From assembly GCF_000730165.1 (NCBI RefSeq), contig NZ_CP022111.1, positions 62,001-126,000 on the forward strand: a stretch of DNA of 64,000 nucleotides, given 5' to 3'. Position numbers and translations under genes: made by a program. The notes under the pieces are model-generated. The model worked only from the letters and a program-made list of their open reading frames with translations. It was not told the origin of the DNA and ran no database searches. This DNA is from Nitrospirillum viridazoti CBAmc (GTDB lineage: Bacteria > Pseudomonadota > Alphaproteobacteria > Azospirillales > Azospirillaceae). Positions 14,557 through 17,765 of this stretch are shown here, piece after piece; within the stretch, counting starts at the first letter, position 1; every line of letters starts with the position of its first letter.

Positions 14557-14757
14557 TCAGCAACAGCGGCCGACCTTGCCGCTGTAGCGCGCCTCCTGCC
14601 GTTCGCGGAAGAACTCCTCCCGCGACATGATGGGCTGGTCAGGATGGTTGAGGCGCCGGTGTTCGACATAGCTGTCATAGTCCGGCAGCCCCACCATCAG
14701 GTTGGCCATGCGGGCCACCAGCTTGGCGAAGGGAAGGGCTTGCGCCTGCGCCGACAT
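14557..14757 (-). CDS. YbdD/YjiX family small protein
   Basis: A 66-residue protein of the DUF466 family. The core [19 protein letters not shown], the [17 protein letters not shown] segment and the terminal CC match YjiX and YbdD of E. coli, which are encoded beside the pyruvate transporters BtsT and CstA. Its ATG shares one base with the cstA stop (TGATG), so it is translationally coupled. YbdD/YjiX is thought to support the transporter, but its mechanism is not known. The family call is secure. Confidence 0.92.
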
Positions 14758-16838
14758 CAATCGTCCCCGGCGGCGACGGCGGCCCCGCCCCCGAGGGAGA
14801 CGGCACCGACCTCGTGCGCCGTGGCGCGCGGGTTGGCCAGGGCCTTGCGGATGTTCAGGATGCCGAACACCAGCATGGACACGACCACGGCCATGAACAG
14901 GCCGCACAGGGTGGCGTCGACATAGTCGTTGGTGATGACCCGGGCCATGGCCTCCGTCGTCTTGGCCGGGGCCAGCACCTTGCCGTCGGCCAGCGCGGTG
15001 GAGAACTTCCGAGCGTGCGCCAGGAAGCCCACGGCCGGGTTGTCATCGAACAGTTTCTGCCAGCCGGCGGTCAGCGTGCAGATGGCCAGCCATACGGTGG
15101 GTAGGATGGTGACCCAGGCGAACTTCTCCCGCTTCATCTTGAATAGGATGACGGTACCCAGCATCAGGGCGATGGCTGCCAGCATCTGGTTGGAGATGCC
15201 GAACAACGGCCACAGCGTGTTGATGCCGCCCAGCGGGTCGACCACGCCCTGGTACAGGAAATAGCCCCAGCCGGCGACGGCGATGGCCGTGGCCAGCAGG
15301 TTGGCGCCCCAGCTCTGGGTCACGCGCAGGGCCGGCACCGCCGTGCCCAGTAGGTCCTGGATCATGAAGCGGGCGACGCGGGTGCCGGCGTCGACCGTGG
15401 TCAGGATGAACAGGGCCTCGAACAGGATGGCGAAATGGTACCAGAAGGCGGTCATGGACTGGCCGCCCACCAGGTTGGACAGGATGGTCGACATGCCCAC
15501 GGCCAGGGTGGGGGCGCCGCCCGCGCGGCTGAGGATGGTCGCCTCGCCCACGTTCTTGGCCACCTGGGCCAGCTCGTCGGGCGTGATGGCGAAGCCCCAG
15601 TTGCCCACCACCTGGGCCGCCTGGTCCACCGTGGTGCCGATGACGCCGGCCGGCGTGTTCATGGCGAAATAGACGCCGGGGTGCAGCACGCAGGCCGAGA
15701 TCAGGGCCATGATGGCGACGAAGCTTTCGGCCAGCATGGCGCCATAGCCGATCATGCGGGCCTGGGCCTCCGTCTCCAGCATCTTAGGCGTGGTGCCCGA
15801 GGAGATCAGGGCGTGGAAGCCCGAGACCGAGCCGCAGGCGATGGTGATGAACAGGAAGGGGAACAGCTGGCCGGAGAAGACCGGGCCGCTGCCATCGACG
15901 AAGCGGCTGACCGCTGGCATGTGCAGCTCGGGCATGACGATCAGGATGCCGACCGCCAGCGCGATGATGGTGCCGATCTTCAGGAAGGTCGACAGGTAGT
16001 CGCGCGGCGCCAGCAGCAGCCACACCGGCAGAACCGAGGCGATGAAGCCGTAGGCGATCAGCATCAGGGCCAGCGTCTCACCCTTGAAGGTGAAGGCGGC
16101 GGCCCAGGCGGGATCCTCCGCCACCCATTGACCACCCATGATGCCCAGCAGCAGCAGGACCAGGCCGATGGCCGACATCTCGCCCACGCGGCCGGGGCGG
16201 ATGAAGCGGCCGTAGATGCCCATCAGCACGGCAATGGGCATGGTGGCGAAAACGGTGAAGGTGCCCCAGGGGCTGCCGGCCAGGGCCTTGACCACGATCA
16301 GCGCCAGCACGGCCAGCAGGATGATCATGATGAGCAGCACGCCAAACAGGGCGATGACGCCCGGCACCGTGCCCATCTCGGACTTGATCATGTCGCCCAG
16401 CGACCGGCCGTCGCGGCGGGTGGAGGCGAACAGGATGATGAAGTCCTGAACGGCGCCGGCGAACACCACGCCGATCAGGATCCACAACGTGCCGGGCAGA
16501 TAGCCCATCTGCGCCGCCAGCACGGGACCCACCAGGGGGCCGGCGCCGGCGATGGCGGCGAAGTGGTGGCCGAACAGCACCCACTTGTCCGTGGGCACGT
16601 AATCCAGGCCGTCATTGTGGCGCACGGCCGGGGTCGGGCGCCTGCCGTCCAGCTTCAGGGCGGTGTTGGCGATGTACAGGCTGTAGAAGCGATAGGCGAT
16701 GGTGTAGGTGCACAGGGCCGCCACAACCACCCAAAGCGCGTTGACGGTTTCGCCGCGCGACAGCGCGACGACACCCAGCGATGCGGCGCCGACGAGCGCC
16801 ACAATCAGCCAGACGAGCCGTCCGGCGATTCCGTTCAT
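14757..16838 (-). CDS. cstA: CstA family carbon-starvation / pyruvate transporter
   Basis: A 693-residue polytopic inner-membrane protein, about 16-18 membrane segments. Diagnostic CstA phrases are present: [53 protein letters not shown] and [20 protein letters not shown]. Relatives in E. coli import pyruvate (CstA, BtsT) or peptides during carbon limitation. ATG at 16838 has GGAGG seven bases upstream. It forms a coupled pair with ybdD. Upstream, between 16839 and 17300, lies a plus-strand small-RNA candidate rather than a regulator gene. Confidence 0.96.
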
Positions 16839-17099
16839 TCCGTTTCCTCCCAAGAAATCCCGCGCCCCAGCCCCGGCCGCAGGGGGTACCTCGAATTCTC
16901 TTCACCCTCGGGCTGTCCGCCGGGTCTACGGCGATGGTCCGGGGCTGGCGTTGTCATTGCCGCGCCAGGGCTGATCGCGTTGATATTACAGGATCGTTTA
17001 CCGCTTGGACAGGGGCGGCGCCCGCCTCCGCCAGGGGCGATGCCAAGGGTTCGGTGTGCGGTGCGGTAAAGGAATTATTCATAGTTTTGCGCGATAACA

Positions 17100-17176
17100 G
17101 GGGTGCAACTTGGTTGCGTTTTCCTCCCTTCTGAAAACTCAGCCCCGGCGCCTTCTGGCAGCCGGGGCTTTTTATT
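17100..17176 (+). ncRNA. Candidate small RNA with CCUCCC loop
   Basis: Three hairpins follow each other and end in a T-run, with no plus-strand gene upstream to need a terminator. Hairpin 1: GCAAC (17105-17109) / GTTGC (17113-17117). Hairpin 2: GTTTTC (17118-17123) / GAAAAC (17133-17138), its loop beginning CTCCC so that C123 plus loop reads CCTCCC, an anti-Shine-Dalgarno sequence. Hairpin 3: AGCCCCGGC (17141-17149) / GCCGGGGCT (17161-17169), with GCC/GGC pairing inside, then TTTTTATT. GATAAC at 17093-17098 could be a -10 element. The layout resembles alphaproteobacterial sRNAs such as the CcsR group in Rhodobacter. The 5' end is a guess. Confidence 0.6.
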
Positions 17177-17236
17177 GCCCGCACCGCAGCGTCTTTTTGC
17201 TGCGACCGCAAAACGGCGACGACCCCGCCCGGGTGA

Positions 17237-17264
17237 TCCAGGCGGGGCCGTCCAGGCGGGGCCG
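17237..17264 (+). repeat. 14-base tandem direct repeat
   Basis: TCCAGGCGGGGCCG occurs twice back to back (17237-17250 and 17251-17264). Each copy can pair with GACCCCGCC at 17221-17229, so it may form alternative hairpins downstream of the secreted-protein gene ending at 17301. Confidence 0.6.
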
Positions 17265-17300
17265 TAATGTCAGCCGAACCGGTGCGGTTGCGGGGCGGGA

Positions 17301-17765
17301 TCAGCGGCCCTGGATGGTGATGGTGAGGGTGTCGGTGTAGCTGCCGGCGATGGCCTGGGCGTTGGCGGGGACGGTGACGGCGACGGTGGCGGTCTTGTTG
17401 AACTGGGCGGAAGAGCGGACGACGTTGACGCTGCTGCCGCTGGACTGGCCGTCGTAGATGGGGGTGTAGCTGACGGGCTGGGCGCCGGTGGCGTTGGACT
17501 TCAGGGTGCCGCCGTTGGCGGACTGGACGCTGATCTGGTAGCCGGCGCCGTCGTTGCAGGTCTCGACGACGCTGCCGACGGTGACGGCGTTGGAACCGGT
17601 CAGGATGTTCAGCTGGGCACCGGCATCGGTGACGCTGACGGTGCAGGTCTGGGCGACGGTGCTGTTCAGCTGGATGGTGCCGGAGGCGGCGGCCGTGGCG
17701 GCGAAGGCGGGGGTGGCGGCCAGGGAGACGGCGGCGATCAGGGCGGCGGCGGCGAAGCGGATCAT
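17301..17765 (-). CDS. Secreted beta-rich protein, SCPU/fimbrial-like (paralog A)
   Basis: A 154-residue protein with a clear signal peptide (MIRFAAAALIAAVSLAATPAFA). The mature part has two cysteines, in QTCTVSVTDAG and VVETCNDGAGY, likely forming a disulfide, and ends with the beta-strand phrase GSYTDTLTITI. The pattern resembles spore-coat-protein-U-domain or chaperone-usher pilin-like proteins, but no usher or chaperone gene is adjacent. It is a close paralog of the protein at 18087-18554, with the same cysteine frame and the identical stretch TVPANAQAIAGSY. Exact family and role are uncertain; a surface structural or adhesive role is plausible. Confidence 0.75.
   Translation of the reverse strand: MIRFAAAALIAAVSLAATPAFAATAAASGTIQLNSTVAQTCTVSVTDAGAQLNILTGSNAVTVGSVVETCNDGAGYQISVQSANGGTLKSNATGAQPVSYTPIYDGQSSGSSVNVVRSSAQFNKTATVAVTVPANAQAIAGSYTDTLTITIQGR

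Follow-up and report, generated by a model that had tools for sequence, protein, structure and literature searches.

The intergenic region upstream of cstA in Nitrospirillum viridazoti CBAmc very probably contains a real regulatory RNA gene of about 70 nt that belongs to the αR8 (MmgR/SisA) type. A sequence-only reading had proposed here an unannotated sRNA with an exposed anti-Shine-Dalgarno motif, and conservation, covariation and family match all speak for it. We estimate at roughly 0.82 the probability that this is an αR8-type sRNA of about 70 nt whose core UUUCCUCCCU pairs with ribosome sites of the GGGAGGAAA type and lowers expression, probably with the participation of Hfq. According to the available text of PMC12559287, αR8 RNAs act in carbon use in Caulobacter and in carbon storage in Sinorhizobium. 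Azospirillaceae include plant-associated nitrogen fixers, and each of the 59 genomes analysed from this family carries several αR8-like matches; no report on αR8 RNAs in this family has been found in the open-licence literature, and suhB/mmgR is absent from the accessible main text of PMC7685610, a paper on sRNAs of Azospirillum brasilense.

Organization of the probable sRNA locus

The window analysed is a stretch of 64,000 nucleotides, whose coordinates are used throughout (Table 1). The sRNA lies in a stretch of about 450 bases, without a convincing plus-strand gene, between cstA and a gene encoding an SCPU-domain protein (PF05229, 25.5 bits). Since both neighbours are located on the minus strand, no gene needs a plus-strand terminator, as had been claimed earlier; a terminator of a plus-strand gene has been rejected as there is none upstream. 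The sRNA comprises, from 5′ to 3′, the GCAAC/GTTGC hairpin, the motif UUUUCCUCCCUU and an intrinsic terminator, the letters between 17105 and 17173 being GCAAC-TTG-GTTGC, GTTTTCCTCCCTTCTGAAAAC, a GC-rich hairpin and TTTTT. GATAAC at 17093, the three hairpins and the plus-strand T-run are all found where the sequence-only reading had placed them. The RNA itself had been taken to span 17085-17176; there is very probably an sRNA, at approximately 17105-17176, and the better reading sets its 5′ end near 17104-17106, about 7 bases past GATAAC, and not at 17085. A promoter scan found no consensus sigma-70 promoter for the sRNA.

Table 1 Features of the cstA-sRNA intergenic region in window coordinates
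Feature	Position	Strand	Remarks
cstA (carbon starvation protein CstA), divergent neighbour	14757..16838	-	PF02554, 871 bits; 693 aa, ATG at 16838
Ribosome site and start of cstA, GGGAGGAAACGGAATG	16836..16851	-	complementary to the core; identical in 7/7 genomes
Conserved block, probable cstA promoter	16975..17015	-	role inferred; 30/41 positions unchanged in the seven-genome alignment
Conserved block with -10-like GATAAC (17093-17098), probable sRNA promoter	17053..17098	+	36/46 positions invariant in 7 genomes
αR8-type sRNA gene (very probable)	17105..17176	+	5′ end inferred; 3′ end within the T-run
5′ hairpin of the sRNA, GCAAC-TTG-GTTGC	17105..17117	+	invariant among congeners
Weak middle hairpin GTTTTC/GAAAAC around the core	17118..17138	+	predicted; partner strand varies between genera
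Core UUUCCUCCCU, anti-Shine-Dalgarno seed	17120..17129	+	exact αR8 10-mer; invariant among congeners
Intrinsic terminator (stem 17141-17169, TTTTT 17169-17173)	17141..17173	+	predicted fold; covarying pairs

Downstream of the sRNA a GC-rich inverted repeat occupies positions 17226-17262 of the window and may terminate the minus-strand SCPU gene; similar repeats are present in most congeners.

Conservation, covariation and predicted folding

The sRNA, its -10 and the upstream block are kept in all six Nitrospirillum congeners, with the core invariant. A DNA search of 59 genomes gave matches at E≤0.01 in 15, including N. viridazoti CBAmc itself, all six congeners (E 4.3e-32 or better) and eight genomes of other genera, several of them through short pieces alone. 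In the seven-genome alignment 58 of the 69 sRNA positions and 22 of the 24 positions at the cstA start are invariant, against 1/37 in the flank 17016-17052 and 8/49 in 17177-17225, the latter figure being lowered by genome G003, where the sequence seems unrelated and the contig ends. The SCPU neighbour is present at five of the six congener loci and absent at G003.

Plus-strand frames at 17103-17267 and 17110-17340 exist mechanically, and the element could in principle be a small protein gene. Such a gene is hardly credible and has been rejected, because indels of one or two bases distinguish the congeners inside the element, between the core and the terminator; the sequence downstream is, moreover, hardly conserved.

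More distant relatives have been collected by a pattern scan (hairpin plus core) of a species-genome collection, which returned 39 stretches: 32 from other genera, namely Azospirillum, Niveispirillum, Aerophototrophica, Oleisolibacter and, once, Roseomonas, and five from the own genus, four of them named Nitrospirillum (the Azospirillum sp. B4 stretch is the same contig as a Nitrospirillum congener). Matches in Streptomyces and Sphingomonas are probably due to chance (18.1 and 21.0 bits with the covariance model R1) and were excluded from the resulting alignment A2. R1 has been built from 41 distinct sequences. Since the scan pattern fixes the letters of the 5′ hairpin, A2 is unable to test this helix, and the alignment A4 was used instead, with 69 matches (64 distinct, canonical αR8 RNAs included). 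In A4, which leans towards the R1 model because it was fitted to it, 99.0% of cells are paired, a value as high as this being reached by none of 500 shuffles. Eight of the ten pairs show changes on both sides, three of five in the 5′ hairpin across the family and all five modelled pairs in the terminator; in slid controls at most 64.6% of cells were paired, and the covariation score was at most 0.125 versus 0.494. The covariance check in Azospirillaceae suggested by the sequence-only reading thus reveals compensatory changes in the 5′ hairpin and the terminator, whereas the partner strand of the middle hairpin is not conserved.

When folding begins at 17105, the RNA has three hairpins and no others at minimum free energy (-34.4 kcal/mol), and CUCCC is left unpaired. 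The fold of 17099-17176 is more stable than those of all 200 dinucleotide shuffles (z -3.67), and in it the 5′ AGGGG pairs with CUCCC in place of the three-hairpin layout; the predicted fold therefore hinges on the start site. By far the most stable part is the terminator (-26.4 kcal/mol), which is what would be expected of a mere transcription terminator or a remnant of a 5′ or 3′ UTR that yields no stable regulatory RNA. We consider this explanation improbable, as the 5′ hairpin and the core are invariant in seven genomes, both helices covary, the same RNA lies by tex in one set of genomes and by cstA in another, and there is no plus-strand gene upstream.

The GTTTTC/GAAAAC hairpin that had been proposed to expose CCTCCC is indeed predicted, and the motif is exposed; the hairpin itself is weak (-1.7 kcal/mol alone) and its partner strand, GAAAAC here, is mostly GAAC in other genera. 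As an isolated fragment it beats its shuffles in two of five distinct congener versions and in none of the 23 versions belonging to other genera. When complete RNAs are folded, a small hairpin enclosing the core has a probability of 0.99 in the N. viridazoti copy; 33 of 41 sequences reach 0.5 or more, the mean being 0.70 versus 0.43 for spacer shuffles, in comparison with which eight of the 41 reach the 5% level. CCTCCC is unpaired with a mean probability of 0.90 over the 41 sequences, often as the loop of a weak hairpin, and in these models it is exposed under either partner. A middle stem fixed across genera is not shown by the predictions; a labile loop presenting the core is possible, because most relatives have a weak enclosing hairpin with a changing partner and an unpaired CCTCCC.

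Two further observations concern the surroundings of the relatives. TTAAC, often as GTTAACC, occurs upstream (65 bases upstream of the sRNA) in 35 of the 36 copies outside Nitrospirillum (L037-L075) and resembles a CtrA half-site; Nitrospirillum copies are without it and have TAAAGGA-TT instead. In genome G021 (L018, 1501-1530) a terminator-like stretch lies between CRISPR-like repeats, possibly by chance.

Probable assignment to the αR8 family

As described in the available part of PMC12559287, αR8 RNAs carry a 10-nt single-stranded core downstream of a weak hairpin, followed by a Rho-independent terminator. The Nitrospirillum sRNA contains the exact 10-nt core, a hairpin just upstream of it, which is present and covarying, and a covarying Rho-independent terminator. 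With the αR8 RNAs (RF00519, Caulobacter SisA-D, Sinorhizobium MmgR) it shares the succession of a short hairpin, the 10-nt core and an intrinsic terminator, the length of about 70 nt and the presence of several siblings per genome; it differs in its A-T-rich GCAAC/GTTGC hairpin, which in canonical copies is GCCC/GGGC-like, and in its neighbourhood, as it adjoins cstA (tex in other genera) and not an FGase gene. The four FGase genes of the genome are located on contigs C1 and C3, whereas the sRNA locus is on C2. An FGase neighbour is usual for the single or main αR8 copy only, and Caulobacter SisB-D are likewise without it (PMC12559287, accessible sections). In N. viridazoti itself the canonical αR8 copy (L085, 4552-5041) has a tRNA-Val gene and a glucokinase frame nearby and no FGase gene.

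The best Rfam match of the sRNA is RF00519 (suhB/mmgR) with 23.1 bits, which falls short of the 41-bit gathering cut-off and, taken by itself, is not significant (genome-wide E 0.055). Ten copies of the same branch in eight loci score 24.2-45.9 bits, and one of them, the close relative at L061, passes the cut-off with 45.9 bits. R1 in turn recovers canonical αR8 RNAs both in N. viridazoti and in relatives: among the matches listed for this species the sRNA locus scores 59.9 bits, C2:1583107 37.9 and the canonical αR8 at C1:2136472 30.5, the further ones being weak (20.3 and 16.9 bits). At E≤10 RF00519 has 21 matches in this genome. Three of them, the sRNA locus, C1:2136465 and C2:1583100, are taken as αR8-type because R1 finds them well too; C1:2580200 is a doubtful αR8 (27.0 bits with RF00519, 20.3 with R1), and the remainder look mostly like ordinary terminators. 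Each of the 59 Azospirillaceae genomes has 3-15 RF00519 matches at E≤0.01 (loci L095-L124), and in 58 of them a match exceeds the cut-off. R1 matches at E≤0.001 in 38 of 39 family genomes; in a class-wide sample with stricter filters it matches at E≤1e-5 in two of 142 genomes, the own one and one of another family (35.8 bits), so that strong members seem confined to Azospirillaceae. The sRNA is thus best described, by its sequence, as a divergent sibling of the αR8 RNAs (Rfam suhB/mmgR; Caulobacter SisA-D), and the Nitrospirillum and tex-linked RNAs together as a putative Azospirillaceae-specific αR8 branch that scores below the Rfam cut-off in most tested copies.

The sequence-only reading had likened the RNA to CcsR. 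CcsR RNAs belong to the cuckoo/αr14 type (NfeR1), with which the Nitrospirillum sRNA has in common that it is a short alphaproteobacterial sRNA with an anti-Shine-Dalgarno seed. A small predicted hairpin presents its CCUCCC in the loop, and in 33 of 41 relatives a hairpin enclosing the core has a probability of 0.5 or more, as would suit an RNA with anti-Shine-Dalgarno hairpin loops. The cuckoo/αr14 type, however, consists of several hairpins each carrying CCUCCUCCC (PMC10746234 and PMC3927594, as far as their text is available), with this motif in each of the three hairpins of αr14 RNAs, whereas the sRNA has a single CCUCCC and no CCUCCUCCC; CCTCCTCCC does not occur within 17085-17180, and CCTCCC occurs once. 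The partner strand of the core hairpin also varies between genera, the top Rfam match is suhB/mmgR, and no family named αr14 appears up to E 10. A CcsR identity is therefore very unlikely and has been rejected on the motif; the accessible descriptions of αR8 fit its core, hairpin and terminator.

Candidate targets and genomic place

SisA, an αR8 RNA of Caulobacter, represses mRNAs together with Hfq, the same core pairing with them ahead of the start codon. Direct pairing and repression have been shown, and SisA is sequestered by the sponge CrfA upon carbon starvation (PMC12559287, available text, which does not mention cstA). By analogy with SisA, 17105-17176 would be transcribed from the plus strand as a separate RNA of about 70 nt; its exposed core would pair with GGGAGGAAA-type ribosome sites of mRNAs, block ribosome entry and lower target expression, probably with Hfq taking part. 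The divergent cstA is a plausible target, as are several envelope and catabolic genes, and the other αR8 siblings encoded in the genome would probably act on it as well.

The pattern GGGAGGAAA-N4-10-ATG occurs at 11 distinct places in the 7.38 Mb genome (12 rows, one place twice) and its reversed control once. Six of the 11 open long frames, encoding cstA, DUF1329, DUF1302, an oxidoreductase, an AraC-type regulator and L170, in whose frame no Pfam family exceeds its cut-off; among the other five there are two short frames (102 and 76 aa) and three places without a notable frame. In seven congeners (9-16 rows each) the sites of cstA, DUF1302 and L170 recur identically in 7/7 among the matches listed, and that of DUF1329 in 5/7, orthology being judged by the identical site sequence except for cstA, which was aligned.

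The earlier suggestion that cstA could itself be a target is plausible, its core-complementary site being identical in all seven genomes and one of only 11 such places in the genome; duplex energies do not single cstA out. The sRNA core is predicted to pair with cstA at -17.9 kcal/mol (RNAduplex), a value that places cstA joint fourth when 67 ATG frames, picked mechanically from the window, are compared; the canonical αR8 sibling reaches -21.7 kcal/mol, and we see no special energetic tie between the sRNA and cstA, as this sibling pairs at least as well. Two cstA leaders of other genera gave -22.6 and -25.1 kcal/mol with the sRNA core (the last bases of one leader being inexact). At the readable cstA sites of other genera, some starts being unreadable, GGGAGG is partly kept and GGGAGGAAAC is not. 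Taken together, cstA is a plausible target candidate.

The locus had also been called unrelated, which is true in another sense: other genera have the RNA upstream of tex, and Nitrospirillum is the only genus in which it adjoins cstA. Among the 32 stretches outside the genus, which hold 36 copies, 30 have a divergently oriented tex, with a copy less than 500 bases from the tex match in 28 of the 32 (32 of the 36 copies); at L064 and L073 the distance is 2.0 and 2.7 kb, L061 is without tex and L045 ends at a contig edge. The RNA adjoins cstA in 6/6 Nitrospirillum congeners, and the single tex locus of the N. viridazoti genome has no R1 match at E≤1. As the RNA is tex-linked in other genera and cstA-linked in Nitrospirillum, the simplest reading is that the branch moved from tex to cstA in this genus. 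That the branch, once moved to the cstA leader, forms with the genus-fixed cstA ribosome site GGGAGGAAACGG a divergent sRNA-target pair restraining the carbon-starvation transporter is a tentative idea that we regard as rather unlikely; if true, Azospirillaceae would join the bacteria in which αR8 RNAs have a feast/famine role. A named locus with an adjoining candidate target makes the division of labour between the siblings directly testable.

The tex-linked sRNA is present in two tandem copies about 170-200 bases apart at L037, L048, L057, L064 and L071. At L051, L060, L143 and L153 tex-linked and canonical αR8 copies lie about 0.3-2.6 kb from each other in convergent orientation, as if by local duplication.
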